A stretch of 49,966 nucleotides of DNA from Candidatus Altimarinota bacterium (GTDB taxonomy: Bacteria > Patescibacteriota > Gracilibacteria > BD1-5 > UBA2023). Every line of letters starts with the position of its first letter. Position 1 is the stretch's first letter. Below, one piece after another: positions 2,003 to 8,938 of this stretch. Where the stretch lies: the NCBI GenBank assembly GCA_028689065.1, contig JAQTWX010000007.1, positions 1 to 49,966 of the forward strand, given 5' to 3'. Made by a program: the position numbers and the translations under genes. Below the pieces are notes generated by a model that saw nothing but the letters and a program-made list of their open reading frames with translations, searched no databases and was not told where the DNA came from.

Positions 2003-2983
2003 CTATATCTTAAATATCCTCTTTAATATCTCACGACCAGTATTTACAGAGGTAAGTTCCCTATCTCCACCAAGTCCAGGAGTTGCATTGAATTCAAGTA
2101 TAACACCTCCCGTTTCAGAAAGCGGTTTGGAAAAATCAGAAGAAAGCATGTCTATTCCACATATTCCTAATCCCATTTTCTCCGCGGCTTGAATACAGAT
2201 ATTTTTTGTATCTTTATGAATGAGATTTGTTATATCCTCAATAGTTCCACCTGTTCCGAGATTGGAATTTCCACGGAGTTGTACTATGATTCCTTGAGGA
2301 ACAATACTATCGGGCTTGTAGTCTTGTTTCTCTATAAAGCTAATAAGTTCATCGTCCTCTCGGATAAGAGAGAGTGGTGCTGAATAATTTTGTTGCCTCA
2401 AAGGATTGTTCGCATTCTCCTGATCTATGAGCTCATGAATCGTAGATTTTCCATCACCGATAACTCGTGGTGGGACTCTTTTGAGTGCAACAAGAGCTTC
2501 TCATAAGACAACCAATACTCGGCATTCATCACCCGAAATTTGTTCTTGGATAATCATCTTTGTGTAATCGATAAATGCGGATTGTAATTTTGTTTGAAGC
2601 TCAGGAAGGGAAGTGATGTTCATACAGACTCCATTTCCATGATCTTCATCGGTTGGTTTAATAACAATAGGAAAGTGAAAATCTTTCAAAGCTGTCCAAT
2701 CAAAAGTGTCAAATTCATTCTCATGAATATAGAGAGTTTTTGCTATGGGGAGATTATATCTCTGGAGGAGATTATAGGTGAGTTCTTTATCATTTGCAAT
2801 CTTGAGTCATAAGGAATTATTAACTCCGAAGTCTGTACTCTTAAAAAGCACTTCCTTCCCGTTTCATTTTACCAGAAAGAGATTTTTCTCGGGAACGAGA
2901 ATTTCTACTTCGAGTCCCAGTATTTCTGCCTCTTCTTTGAGAACTTGGGAAGATACGGACCAATAGGTCATGGGTTTTGACAT
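2003..2983 (-). CDS. Cyanophycin synthetase-like ATP-grasp ligase
   Basis: A 326-aa ATP-grasp enzyme, expected to join a carboxylate to an amine through an acyl-phosphate. Visible in order are FPIVIKPTDEDHGNGV (ATP-binding lysine and glycine-rich loop), RVPPRVIGDGKSTI, LRGNSNLGTGGTI and ILEFNATPG (Mg-binding). The RVPP.VIGDG and NL.TGGT.. signatures resemble the ATP-grasp part of cyanophycin synthetase, but the Mur-ligase half of CphA is missing. In-frame TGAs include 2501-2503 (after CRVLVVL) and 2864-2866. The start MSKPMTYW at 2983 is preferred because an ATG at 3070 would overlap the upstream gene, whose TAA is at 3013. The substrate cannot be read from the sequence. Confidence 0.82.
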
Positions 2984-3012
2984 AATTGCGAGTATGATAA
3001 GATAAGGATTGC

Positions 3013-3969
3013 TTATAGAGTTTCCAAAAAATAGTTGGCGATATTTACGAAATATGTGTTTAGCGGTCAATTTTTATTATTGACTTCATTTCAAACAGAT
3101 ACTCAGGGTGTATCATTTATCTCAAATACATACCATCTCTTTTCATCTAGGACATATCAAAAATCGATAGAGAGAATATTGTTATTATCGATTCAAAGAT
3201 TTTTTATGACCCCCATAGATAGTTCCAATAATTCTTTGGGAAGTTGTTCTTTTCATAAATATGCTTGACTTCCACCGCTTCAGACATTGCTTTTTAGGCT
3301 TCAAACAGCAGGACTTCTGAGAGTGGCATGAGAGAATTTTCATCCAATATAGACAAGTCGAACATCATGCATTCATGTAACAAGTCCAGGAAATCCCTTG
3401 CTAAAATCTTTGAATTCCTGAACAATATACAGACTTCCGAGTCCTTCGAATCTTTCCTTATTGGCAATGAGTTCATCTTTTGTAAAAAATTCGATTCCTT
3501 TCCCGGAGTTTGATCGTATCGGTTTTATAGCGAGTTGTTCTGGAAAGTTTTTACGAAGAGATTCACTAGAAAAAAACATCTTTAGGAGAGTTGTTTCTGG
3601 TTGATAGTTTTTTAAAAAAAGATACATCTCATATTTGTCATTTGCAATTGTAACAAGTTTTCTTGAAGGAAAAACAGGCATGTGAAATTTTTCAAAGATA
3701 TCATAAGCATAAAATAATCCATCTTCTGATCGATTCCATATTATGTCTGGCTTATAAGGCTCTTGAAATATTTCAAATTGTCCATCTTTATTAAAGTCGG
3801 CATAATCACAAAATTCTCATTTTATAGCATCAAAGGAATAAATACTTACTCGAACAAGTTCTATTTCATGTTCTTTAAAGACACGTGTGAGTTCCGTATA
3901 GGAAAATAATCTTCCTGAGGGGAGATCGAAAGAATCAATATAATTACTGAGAATGGCAACTTTTTTCAT
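3013..3969 (-). CDS. RimK/glutathione synthetase-like ATP-grasp ligase
   Basis: A 318-aa protein with several in-frame TGAs (for example 3373-3375, 3301-3303, 3280-3282, 3157-3159). The N-terminus MKKVAILSNYIDSFDLPSG is a Rossmann-like pre-ATP-grasp domain. It is followed by DIIWNRSEDG, LAIKPIRSNSGKGIEFF (ATP lysine and loop), NVGSGGSQ and, near the end, DFGYVLDEKRWYVFEINDTPG with the Mg-binding E and N. This order is typical of RimK/GshB-type amino-acid ligases. It starts 27 bases after the stop of the membrane protein upstream, so the two are probably co-transcribed. The stop is TAA at 3013. The substrate is unknown; a glutamate- or peptide-ligating role is inference from the family. Confidence 0.8.
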
Positions 3970-3996
3970 AAAATGAATATTACGGAGTATAATGTA

Positions 3997-5502
3997 TTAT
4001 TCTTCTTCATCCAATTTTTTAAGAAGTGGCGCAAATCGGAAATATTCAAACACTTGTAGTCACATATATCGCCCGACAAGAATGTTTAAAAGCATTACAA
4101 GTACAATGACATCGGGATAGGAAATCAGAAAATATTGAAGCGTCTTATATTCAAAGAGAGAATATATAATGAAAGTAATAATTCCATATTGAAGTGCATC
4201 AAATACTCCTGATTTTCCAAATATATTTATGTTTTCCTGAAATATCTTGTCTGCGATAACGATAGTAGTAAAAAGTGGAAAGATAATAAGGGAATTATCA
4301 AAGATGGAATAATTTATAAGCGAAAGCTCAAAGAAATTATCGATTCCGAGAACAAAAAGAAAAAGCATAATATAGAGACTGATAAGAAGCGATCTTTTTG
4401 CATGAATAAGCAAGTGAACCTTCTTACTGAAGATATTTACTATAAGAATAGATACGAAACCAATGGCAATAAACATAAGAGCTCCAGAAAATCCGAGAGA
4501 AACGATAGTGATAGCCAAAAGAACAGGATAATATATTCCAAATACATCGAACCCGATGACTTGTTTCAAGAAATTGAGCGTGAGAACTACAAAAGTGATA
4601 GAGAGAAGAAAAGCGAGTAATTGATAGGAAAATCCCGAATAGGCAAGAAATTCGATAAAACCACTGAGACTATATACGGTATTTCATTTCTCATAAGATA
4701 ATTCTTGTCCAATAGAAACATCTTCTTTTCCACCAGTAGAAAGTTGTGTGATGATGCTATAAAATTGATTCTCTGAGATTAGAAAAACACGGGTTGCACC
4801 AATCTGGGAAAGAGAGGAAGCGATAATTTTTGAGAGAAATGAGCGAGAAAAATCAGAGATGATATAGATTTTCTTTTTTGCAAAATTGACGGGTTTTATC
4901 TTCTGGAGTTTTATAATATTGGAAAAAAATCCGAGAATATCCTTGCTTCCTATGACAAAAATATCACTTTGATCGATAGAGTTCCATGTAGCCTGAGATG
5001 CCTCATTTTGAGGAAGTACCGATTTGTCTATAGCACTTTCTAATAGAATATTATTTTTTTCCAAGATATCTGACATTCCTGTTTTGAGCAATGAGAGATC
5101 GTCTCCAATATACATAAGCTCGCTCCCATATACTCGAATCTTTTTCTGTATACTTCCAGTACATGAAACAGGAATACCGGCAATATTTGCTTCGATGATA
5201 ACTTCGCCAGGAGTGGTAAAGTAACGGATATATTTTTCTCTTCCGGTTGTTGTTTCGATAATAACATTATCTCGCTTAAGAACATATGTTGTATTCCCAG
5301 AAAAATCTCATCCATCCGACGTAGAAATAATATATTCGTGCAGAGTTCCTGTTTTTATTTGCGAGGCTCACTGAATCTGGTACAGATCTTTACAAGATTC
5401 CATATGCTGAGAAGTGGTATTTCCACTTTGAGTTATAGTGGCTGTTTCCGCAAAGACAGAGACTGGAATGAGAAATAGAAGAAAGAATATATATTTTCGC
5501 AT
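3997..5502 (-). CDS. Secreted-domain plus multi-pass membrane protein (7TM_transglut-like)
   Basis: A 501-aa protein. Residues 1-18 (MRKYIFFLLFLIPVSVFA) form a signal peptide. A beta-rich extracytoplasmic region with an Ig/PKD-like stretch (YVLKRDNVIIETTTG) follows, then a mixed region to about residue 272. From about 280 to 480 there are roughly seven hydrophobic helices ending in ILVGRYMGLQVFEYFRF. That final motif, with its membrane topology, resembles the seven-helix region attached to inactive transglutaminases in ATP-grasp (amidoligase) neighbourhoods; the family match is by eye. TGA codons lie inside QIQ(TGA)ASQ and SDG(TGA)DF. It lies 12 bases downstream of the ATP-grasp/DUF1704 gene and 27 upstream of the RimK-like gene, consistent with one operon. 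Confidence 0.7.
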
Positions 5503-5514
5503 AAGATATAATAA

Positions 5515-7839
5515 TTAGAGTTGATTGATAATTTCTAGATCTTTTATTTTTATTTTCCCGTAAAATAATTGTTCCTGATCACCTCATTTTTCTATCCATT
5601 GTTTTACTCGCATATATCCATCGAGATATATTTTATCTTTTTGATAGGTAATTCCATGAATTCCTTTTATTCAAGAATGGGTAATCCCACGTTTCAGTCT
5701 GACGGCATCTGAGAAAATGGATTCCAGTGATTTTTCAGGATAGAGGGAAATTAATAGTCCTACGGTATCAGAAAATGAAAGTACATCGACCGTGGAGAGG
5801 AGGTAATATTTTACGTACATAGCATTTTTCTCATATCCTTCTGGAAGATGCGAAAATGAGCGATAAATAGCAAGACCTTCTTCATCGGAAAGATAATACC
5901 CGGTACCATATTGAAATAGTTTGAGACCCGTTTCATAACCTGCAAGATATCTCCGAAAATGCGTATCGATTTCATGTGCAAGAATAGCATTGATTTCATT
6001 TTCACGAATTACAGCATTTTTCGATATATGGATTTTTACTTCTTTTCCATAAGAAACCGACATACGAGATAGGTTTCAGCTTTGTATCGTAATAGGGATT
6101 TTCTTGATATTATGTGACTCGAAATAGGTATGTATATGTTTTACTATCTCATCGAGAGAAAGAACCTTTCCGAGAATAATTTCATCGTTTTTATTGTTTC
6201 ATTGCATCTCCAATACTTTTTCTTTGGCAATCTTTAGAAAGTTTGCATGGGTTTTTCCAAATAGCAGAGTATTGAAATGTTGAATCTTTTCAAAATCCTC
6301 ATTTTTATACGCTTCTACGAGTCCGAGTTTTGACTCGATTTCAGAAAGTTTTTCTCTGTAGAGAGAGGCAATAGGAAGTCATTGCTGTTCTAATGAAATA
6401 CTTTTTTCAGCAAGTACTTTTAAAGTACTTCTTATAGATTCGATTCTTTCACTGCTAGGGAAATGGTATTTGAAAACAGGATTAAATCCATGAGGATTTC
6501 GAATAAATGCATCAAGGAGAGAAAAATAATTATCAGGTTTGAGAAGTGAAGAGAGATTGATTTTCTTTCCAATCCTATATACCTCATCATCAAAGTTTAT
6601 GAGTTCTTTTGACCATCTTTTAGAAGCATTTTTTAATTCTGGCAATACGTACGATGTCGGATTGATGAGATAGTTTTGCAGTACATCCATTCAGAGAATA
6701 ATCTTTTCCTTATAAGAAGGGGAGACTTCATATTTCTTAAGAAGAAGTGAGATATTTGAATCGGTTGATACTTGGATATCGGAAGATTCTACAGAATCTA
6801 TAATATCTTTTGATACCAGCGTTCATTTTCTGTGCATATCCACAGAAACTGTTATTTCTTTTTCTCCGACTGTTCCTCTTTGTTCAAGATAGAGGATTTT
6901 TTTACTAATAGGAGAAGAAAATATCTCTGTTTGAAACAAAGTTTTTGCTATTTCAACACCTTTTTCAGGAGTGGTTATCTTTATGTCTTCGATTTTTTTC
7001 AATCGTGAAGCGAGTGGTACGAGATTTACATTTTGTATCTCGAGTCCCGCACGAGCATTGATTTCTAGGAGTTTTGGTCCATCTTTTGTTATGACCCAAT
7101 CGAGTGCGAGATATCCGAGCTTCGTATACATCTGAACTTGTGAAGAAAAGAGGAGAATATCATCCCAGAATGGAAGTATTCTATCTTTGAGTCATTCGTA
7201 TCAAACAGGAAAAGAGTAGGTATGAATCTCTCGGTTTTGAAACAAACTTATAATCTGTCCATTGGCAATATTGATACCCAATCAGATTCATCATTGAGCG
7301 AGATTTGCCTTGCTTTGGGAATGAATCGTCGGCATACGAATCATTGCCGTGATAGGAACATAGTTATAAACGATAATTCGTATATCAGCGAGACCATATT
7401 TACAATAATGTTTAAAATCGGATCACGGAGCAAGAAGTTCTTCTATGACGACTGTATCAGAAGAGCCATGTAGAGAAAAGGATCCATGAAGGATATCGGT
7501 CATATGAAGTTTTATCTCGTCTTCACTCCATATTTCATCCTGAATTTCATAGGCATCTTTATTTCTTTTTACGATGAGTATTCCATTTCATTGACTTCCT
7601 TTGTTCGGCTTGATGACAAAATGATTCGACTTGATGGATTTGAATGAAAAATCCATAAGTTCCTGCTGACTTCAGAGTGTTCTGTATGTTTCTGCAAAAG
7701 GGATTCACCGACTTGAGAGAAAGTTTTTTGTTTTTAATTTACTGTCTGCAAGAGACATGGATTCAGTAGAGTTTTTAGTTCGTATGTATCGTAAATTTCG
7801 CGCGTTCATGCCGAGAATACCATGGGAAAAAATTTTCAT
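5515..7839 (-). CDS. ATP-grasp ligase fused to a DUF1704 (QEGLA-type) metallopeptidase-like domain
   Basis: A single 774-aa frame interrupted only by TGA codons. Residues 1 to about 340 match the sugar-transfer/alpha-glutamate-ligase-like ATP-grasp family: GILGMNARNLRYI near the N-terminus, HFVIKPNKGSQ(TGA)NGILIV, and LALDWV....LLEINARAGLEIQ with E259 and N261 as likely Mg ligands. After a linker, residues about 390-774 resemble DUF1704. They contain AHEIDTH (H622, E623, H627), an HExxxH zinc-site pattern as in MATCAP-type carboxypeptidases, followed by DEEGLAIY, the QEGLA-like element. No TAA or TAG separates the halves; TGA at 6823-6825 and at the linker reads through as glycine. The first ATG of the frame after an AT-rich leader was taken as the start. 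Combining ligation and hydrolysis in one chain suggests making and trimming of a peptide tag, which is inference. Confidence 0.8.
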
Positions 7840-8368: not shown

Positions 8369-8872
8369 TTATTGGTTCAGGTTTTCTTGTGTAAGTTTTT
8401 TTGCTTCTTTTTGTGCTTTTTTTAGGGCTGTTGAATGTGAAAAATCTAGCGAGAGATATTTATCTACTATAGATTTATAATGAGCAGGGAGTTGTTCAAT
8501 AACCAGGTGAACTTGTACTTCATTCCATGCTTTTGTCTTAAATGCTCCTTCCGACAGATATTTCTCTGCGATAGCCTTGAGTTCAGGAGGGAGATTATTG
8601 ATATCCTCCTGAACAAGGGCTTCTCTGAGGGATTTTTGATAACTTTCATTTTCTAGGAGATATCTCTCTGCAATGGCTTTGAGTTCCGGAGAGAGATTAT
8701 CGATATCTCCATATATGAGAGCTTCTTTGAGGGCACTTTCTTGAGTACATCCCTCCTTTGCTATACATGTATCGAAAATGGCTCTGAGGTTGTCAGGGAG
8801 ACTGTTGATATCTTTTTGGATATGTAGAGCTTTCCTGATATGTATTTCTTCGATGGAAGTTTGGGTATTCAT
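8369..8872 (-). CDS. Repeat-containing hypothetical protein
   Basis: About 167 aa from the ATG at 8872 (MNTQTSIEE). It contains tandem units of about 34 residues: ALKEALIYGDIDNLSPELKA and LREALVQEDINNLPPELKA, each followed by IAE+YL, with weaker copies on either side. Helix-rich and soluble, with no signal peptide. A start at 8938 is open in frame, but a likely -10 (TATAAT) lies downstream of it at 8917-8912, which favours 8872. Family not recognised. Confidence 0.6.
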   Translation of the reverse strand: MNTQTSIEEIHIRKALHIQKDINSLPDNLRAIFDTCIAKEGCTQESALKEALIYGDIDNLSPELKAIAERYLLENESYQKSLREALVQEDINNLPPELKAIAEKYLSEGAFKTKAWNEVQVHLVIEQLPAHYKSIVDKYLSLDFSHSTALKKAQKEAKKLTQENLNQ

Positions 8873-8911
8873 ATTGTTAAAATAGTATGTACTTAATATA
8901 TTGACATATGG

Positions 8912-8938
8912 ATTATAATAGTAATTATGAATATGCAA
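8912..8938 (-). promoter_or_regulatory. Putative sigma70-type promoter
   Basis: On the minus strand TTGCAT (8938-8933) and TATAAT (8917-8912) are separated by 15 bp. The predicted start of transcription, about 8905, lies between the two candidate start codons of the repeat protein and decides for the inner one. The spacing is short, so confidence is moderate. Confidence 0.45.

Follow-up and report, generated by a model that had tools for sequence, protein, structure and literature searches.

Positions 2003–7839 of a 49,966-nucleotide stretch of DNA from a Candidatus Altimarinota bacterium of the class Gracilibacteria (contig JAQTWX010000007.1, assembly GCA_028689065.1; hereafter the window) hold an operon of four minus-strand genes, which we read as probably a divergent RloB–RloC system. 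Its first gene encodes a protein of 774 amino acids (aa) composed of three domains, i.e., a RloC/RimK-like ATP-grasp ligase, a degenerate retropepsin-like domain, and a MATCAP (DUF1704) metallocarboxypeptidase. This protein would be a single-chain enzyme that both builds and trims a polyamino acid, its MATCAP domain having replaced the retropepsin. Relatives across the Candidate Phyla Radiation (CPR) suggest that one trimming protease replaced another within a single protein. The fusion of a ligase and a retropepsin with a peptidase of the deglutamylase family in one chain leads to a specific prediction: the product would be a polyamino acid that has been trimmed, probably polyglutamate and, by analogy with characterized enzymes, probably poly-α-glutamate. 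This can be checked with one purified protein.

The ligase domain (6919–7839, residues 1–307) matches PF14397 ATPgrasp_ST at 1.5e-54 and TIGR02291 at 3.9e-59 (200 bits, under the curated equivalog cut-off of 314), the second match being the mark of the RloC-type ligase of RloABC systems. In fold comparisons RimK reaches Z 17.1, level with CphA and ArgX. Residues K77, E133, D152, R154, D247, E259, and N261 are invariant in 50 relatives. At the other end of the chain, the MATCAP (DUF1704/QEGLA) domain (5518–6591, residues 417–774) matches PF08014 at 1.4e-19 (70.7 bits, cut-off 27) and superposes on human MATCAP (7z5g) with Z 24.9 over 275 residues and a root-mean-square deviation (rmsd) of 2.5. 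To this family profile and fold are added both expected motifs: the metal-binding HExxxH (H622 E623 I D T H627; 5959–5976), with H622, E623, and H627 invariant in the 50 relatives, and EEG (E653 E654 G655; 5875–5883), which holds a putative third metal ligand and in which E654 and G655 are invariant. KIAA0895L/MATCAP carries the identical HExxxH motif, and two human enzymes of this family, TMCP1/2, cut back the polyglutamate chains of tubulin (PMC10499314). The domain thus resembles the MATCAP/TMCP tubulin carboxypeptidases in fold and in both motifs, but it is bacterial, has no tubulin, and is fused to its presumed opposing ligase.

The initial annotation of this DNA had described the 774-aa protein as an ATP-grasp/DUF1704 fusion; both domains are there, but about 100 residues between them (6625–6918, residues 308–405), left unnamed by the Pfam and NCBIfam libraries, form a third. 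Many Patescibacteria RloC proteins end after this region, and there it shows the motifs DTGA...SID...LIGRRDLKGFLVDP. The regions with an intact DTG match PF05618 in 29/29 cases, and their profile finds 9G59 (1.1e-10) and 9G58 (8.5e-10), which are crystal structures of RloA (PMC12239564). Aligned with hhalign, the profile of the DTG-less regions matches that of the intact ones at 98.9% (E 3.6e-17), and in the AlphaFold2 model of the window's region the strands, with a short helix late in the domain, follow the order of a retropepsin, as compared by eye with general knowledge of the fold; the predicted local distance difference test (pLDDT) score is mostly 80–88. The profile match, the PF05618 and RloA matches, and the strand order together identify the region as a retropepsin. 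It is a degenerate one, however: D338 is kept, the T-G-A of DTGA has become M-H-R, and D338-M-H therefore stands where the catalytic D-T/S-G would be, so that the domain is predicted to be inactive. A scan of the window's 96%-complete genome with PF05618 gave no match.

The loss of this motif goes along with MATCAP. The comparison covered 94 RloC proteins in which the retropepsin region could be read, found with domain-limited hidden Markov models (HMMs). DTG is absent from 40 of the 42 proteins fused to MATCAP and retained in 50 of the 52 unfused ones, and both unfused exceptions (L064 and L067, which read NTG) have a separate MATCAP gene adjoining. All 35 loci without any MATCAP retain DTG, no locus lacks both peptidases, and at the level of whole genomes in the phylum sample MATCAP is found in 26/26 with a DTG-less protein and DTG in 29/29 without MATCAP. 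The locus-level Fisher test (p = 1e-21, fusion versus DTG loss) is overstated and was not taken as significance, because the ligase-domain tree holds only two fusions and one separate NTG loss, with 3/3 events in the expected direction.

The DTG-less region has also changed faster. At 40–50% ligase identity the retropepsin identity is 0.17 among DTG-less proteins versus 0.30 among intact ones, and in every bin of equal ligase divergence the fused proteins show a greater divergence of this region than the unfused. Between the window and the related locus L110, it is 52% identical, while the ligase and MATCAP domains are 83% and 84% identical. This fits a relaxed constraint after catalysis was lost, as judged from these sequences. 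The fusion would then show how, in nature, a protease of one class can take the place of another within one polypeptide while a pseudo-retropepsin remains. In the openly searchable literature no description was found of the ligase–retropepsin–MATCAP fusion or of a protease exchange.

Several loci show other arrangements of the same domains. Two proteins (L034:11252-11647 and L042:11210-11620) are fused to MATCAP and yet read DTG-K or DSG-K, possibly as intermediates of the loss, and L035 reads DTS although its ligase domain is nearly identical to that of L034. At L104:6908-9673, a RloC ligase is joined in a single 921-aa protein to a retropepsin that still has its DTG (PF05618, 7.6e-12) and to another ATP-grasp domain, and a MATCAP gene lies close by on the opposite strand. 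Family f26 (L087–L100) has a bare 220-aa 7TM RloB, a RloC with a DTG-intact retropepsin, and three close ATP-grasp genes; MATCAP is encoded there by a gene of its own on the opposite strand.

The second gene of the operon encodes a RloB-like membrane protein of 501 aa, in which a putative signal peptide read from the sequence (residues 1–18, 5449–5502; MRKYIFFLLFLIPVSVFA) is followed by two extracytoplasmic domains and a seven-helix (7TM) domain. The 7TM domain (4036–4626, helices within residues 293–489 in the AlphaFold2 model) matches PF14402 7TM_transglut at 1.2e-10 (41.7 bits, cut-off 25), as expected of RloB, whereas the RloB exception model NF052267 gives 19.9 against a cut-off of 900. 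The first extracytoplasmic domain (5125–5400, residues 35–126) has a PKD fold, with Z 10.4 to the PKD domain of the collagenase ColG, and Pfam matches to PKD occur in 32 of 48 relatives. The other (4723–5124, residues 127–260) is an alpha/beta, flavodoxin-like domain whose AlphaFold2 model matches SsuE (6dqi) with Z 9.3 over 131 residues and an rmsd of 3.4. These two domains occupy the place that the inactive transglutaminase has in RloABC, and no transglutaminase appears in the Pfam matches of the window's protein or among the 25 families listed for the 48 relatives. The transglutaminase-7TM type proposed for it in the initial annotation therefore holds for the membrane part and not for the secreted one. 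A kinship of the 7TM domain with CapC/PgsC, the membrane subunit of poly-gamma-glutamate synthase, was considered and dropped: no such family is found in the Pfam matches of five RloB proteins with E up to 10, nor, in what is a family-level scan only, among the 25 families listed for the 48 relatives. Searching the PDB for folds similar to the 7TM part gave no informative match, which has no bearing on the novelty of the fold.

RloB and RloC travel together. In 287 Patescibacteria genomes they co-occur in 87 of 87, i.e., the pair is present in 30% of the sampled Patescibacteria, and within the window's order RloC was found in 43 of the 44 genomes bearing RloB. This differs from the earlier picture, in which RloABC, described in 2025 in Pseudomonas, is largely proteobacterial (96% of RloB hits) and of unknown chemistry (PMC12239564). 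In the family of L124–L148, which belongs to the window's order, RloB is often located apart from RloC, near YmdB and M23 peptidase genes, and adjoins a bacterial sugar transferase (PF02397) in 17 loci; RloC and MATCAP are located elsewhere in these genomes, with spacings that suggest the same fusion.

The four genes are open under genetic code 25 (TGA = Gly) and run 7839–5515, 5502–3997, 3969–3013, and 2983–2003, encoding proteins of 774, 501, 318, and 326 aa with 12, 27, and 29 bases between successive genes, as the initial annotation had described them. The ATG at 2983 was taken as the start of the last gene, where the longest open reading frame (ORF) would begin with TTG at 3070, because its orthologues measure 326–329 aa. 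TGA codons encode G84 and G183 of the 774-aa protein, and these glycines are invariant across the 50 relatives, so the recoding is real. It is not, however, a relevant trait of the system, as first proposed, since the same fusion is present in many Peregrinibacteria, Peribacteria, and Magasanikbacteria that use the standard code. The host is a tiny, episymbiont-type bacterium (assembly of 1.04 Mb), and the nearest named relatives of the 774-aa protein, with 68–77% identity, belong to Candidatus Gracilibacteria. The neighbourhood is conserved in relatives, so that one of the outcomes named in the initial annotation as refuting its proposal did not occur: L116 has the identical four-gene order and L110 the same with one inserted ORF (57–79% identity), while the 318-aa gene is absent from the operon in L117. 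This order in two relatives, together with the 87/87 co-occurrence, indicates that the arrangement is not due to chance.

The 318- and 326-aa proteins are two further ATP-grasp ligases, so that three different ones with the usual catalytic residues are encoded, as had been noted. The 318-aa protein (3013–3969) is a divergent RimK/GshB-like ligase whose best NCBIfam match is MptN (9.5e-8), with PF08443 just under cut-off and orthologues of 59% identity in L110 and 57% in L116. The 326-aa protein (2003–2983) is of the CphA type: it matches TIGR02068 with 228 bits (cut-off 850) over 289 of 862 positions and the cyanophycin synthetase 7lg5 at 2.9e-41, over the ATP-grasp domain of the latter, and its orthologues are 66–74% identical. 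It resembles cyanophycin synthetase CphA1 (7lg5, 7wac) in this domain; it lacks both the Mur-ligase domain and the N-terminal CphA domain and consists of ATP-grasp alone. Of the three ligases listed in the initial annotation, these two lie outside the core of the system: 33 of the 59 other Patescibacteria loci, versus 2 of 21 of the window's class, have at least one extra ATP-grasp gene no more than 8 kb from RloB, so extra ligases are recurrent but not core, and those of the window are a lineage-specific add-on. In the Gracilibacteria genome S5_H10 (L166:5911-14417), one run holds a RloC–MATCAP fusion, three stand-alone ATP-grasp genes, RloB, and another MATCAP-like protein, 562 aa long.

Several known systems share parts with this operon. 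Like RloABC of Pseudomonas aeruginosa, which has been linked to osmotic stress, biofilm, and cell shape (PMC12239564), it has a RloC-lineage ATP-grasp ligase, a RloB-lineage 7TM protein, and a linked peptidase domain of the RloA family. In RloABC, however, RloA is separate, secreted, and active, while the retropepsin of the window is degenerate, cytoplasmic by position, and fused behind the ligase with MATCAP following; moreover, RloB carries PKD and alpha/beta domains instead of the inactive transglutaminase, and two more ligases are present. The operon would work like RloABC, yet lies outside its published definition because it has neither the transglutaminase domain nor an active, secreted retropepsin. 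The RimBK hybrid of Desulfotalea psychrophila (PMC11957791) is similar in that a RimK-like ATP-grasp domain is fused to a retropepsin of the RimB/RloA family, but its retropepsin is active and N-terminal to RimK, whereas here the order is ligase–retropepsin, DTG is lost, MATCAP follows, and RloB is linked. The combination, which looked unusual in the initial annotation, is no isolated oddity but a divergent variant of RloABC (PMC12239564); the family matches do bear out its proposal of an ATP-grasp, 7TM, and peptidase system, and the domain content is consistent with a peptide that is made and trimmed. The general gene types are also those of the ATP-grasp amidoligase clusters with DUF1704 and inactive transglutaminase-7TM proteins that Iyer et al. 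reportedly predicted in 2009.

RimK, one of the best fold matches of the ligase domain, is a poly-alpha-glutamate synthetase. By analogy, the ATP-grasp domain would add amino acids, most likely glutamates, one at a time onto a carboxyl end, and the MATCAP domain would remove residues from that same end. Without its active site, the retropepsin may be left with no other role than supporting or activating the ligase. RimB, besides trimming polyglutamate, stimulates RimK (PMC11957791), and such an effect could explain why a dead retropepsin stays fused to the ligase. The 7TM protein, with its PKD and alpha/beta domains predicted to be exposed outside the cell, could connect the enzyme in the cytoplasm with the cell surface, as its anchor or as a conduit or sensor for the chain. 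The two further ligases would probably prime the chain or add other residues.

Several points weigh against this interpretation. Polyglutamate is deduced from RimK, RloA, and TMCP rather than from the 774-aa protein, the polyglutamate preference suggested for the bacterial MATCAP comes from its human relatives, and human MATCAP removes tyrosine as well. The substrates of the extra ligases may be other amino acids, and neither a target protein nor a target polymer was found. As for the exchange of proteases, D338 itself is retained, 2 of the 42 fused proteins keep DTG or DSG, and the approximately three independent events that underlie the pattern are suggestive but alone not significant. A bolder extension, which we put forward tentatively, is that of a one-protein polyglutamate writer and eraser in CPR bacteria, in which a metallocarboxypeptidase displaced an aspartic retropepsin and the dead copy was kept as a ligase activator. 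Bacteria would in that case have, in the ATP-grasp writer and the MATCAP eraser, a counterpart and perhaps a forerunner of the pair that acts in eukaryotic tubulin polyglutamylation, where the TTLL enzymes are ATP-grasp as well.

The same domains could serve other ends. The RimK-like fold of the ligase would suit a reversible tagging of the C-terminus of a cytoplasmic protein, as with RimK on ribosomal protein S6, having MATCAP as the eraser and RloB as a membrane sensor only; the RimK/RimB pair sets a precedent (PMC11957791), and eukaryotic polyglutamylation is likewise written by TTLL and trimmed by TMCP (PMC10499314). We regard this as unlikely, since no conserved target gene was found in the neighbourhood and the protein to which the ligase is so strictly coupled has large domains outside the cytoplasm, which suggests an outward-facing role. 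That same coupling, RloB and RloC always sharing genomes in the phylum sample while the extra ligases are so rare in the class, makes it rather improbable that the operon serves a cytoplasmic storage polymer, i.e., a cyanophycin-like or poly-acidic reserve made by the CphA-type and other ligases and mobilized by MATCAP, with RloB incidental. The 326-aa ligase does find its closest match in the ATP-grasp part of cyanophycin synthetase, but it has no Mur-ligase domain. An editing of cell-wall peptides, with the ligases acting on peptidoglycan stem peptides or their precursors, would agree with the altered shape and antibiotic sensitivity of P. aeruginosa rlo mutants (PMC12239564) and with the alanine racemase gene 640 bases downstream of the operon; we consider it very improbable, as the racemase is not beside the operon in L110, L116, L117, L113, and L119 and the best family matches of all the ligases are neither Ddl- nor Mur-like.

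The flanking genes were rejected as parts of the build-and-trim system: the alanine racemase, PhnA/YjdM, a 104-aa lipoprotein-like ORF, and a 189-aa ORF are all absent from the borders of the operon in relatives. Rfam and tRNA scans of the window gave no matches. The 189-aa ORF (8369–8938) has no family match and contains about four imperfect repeats of 30–35 residues (LPPELKAIAEKYL).

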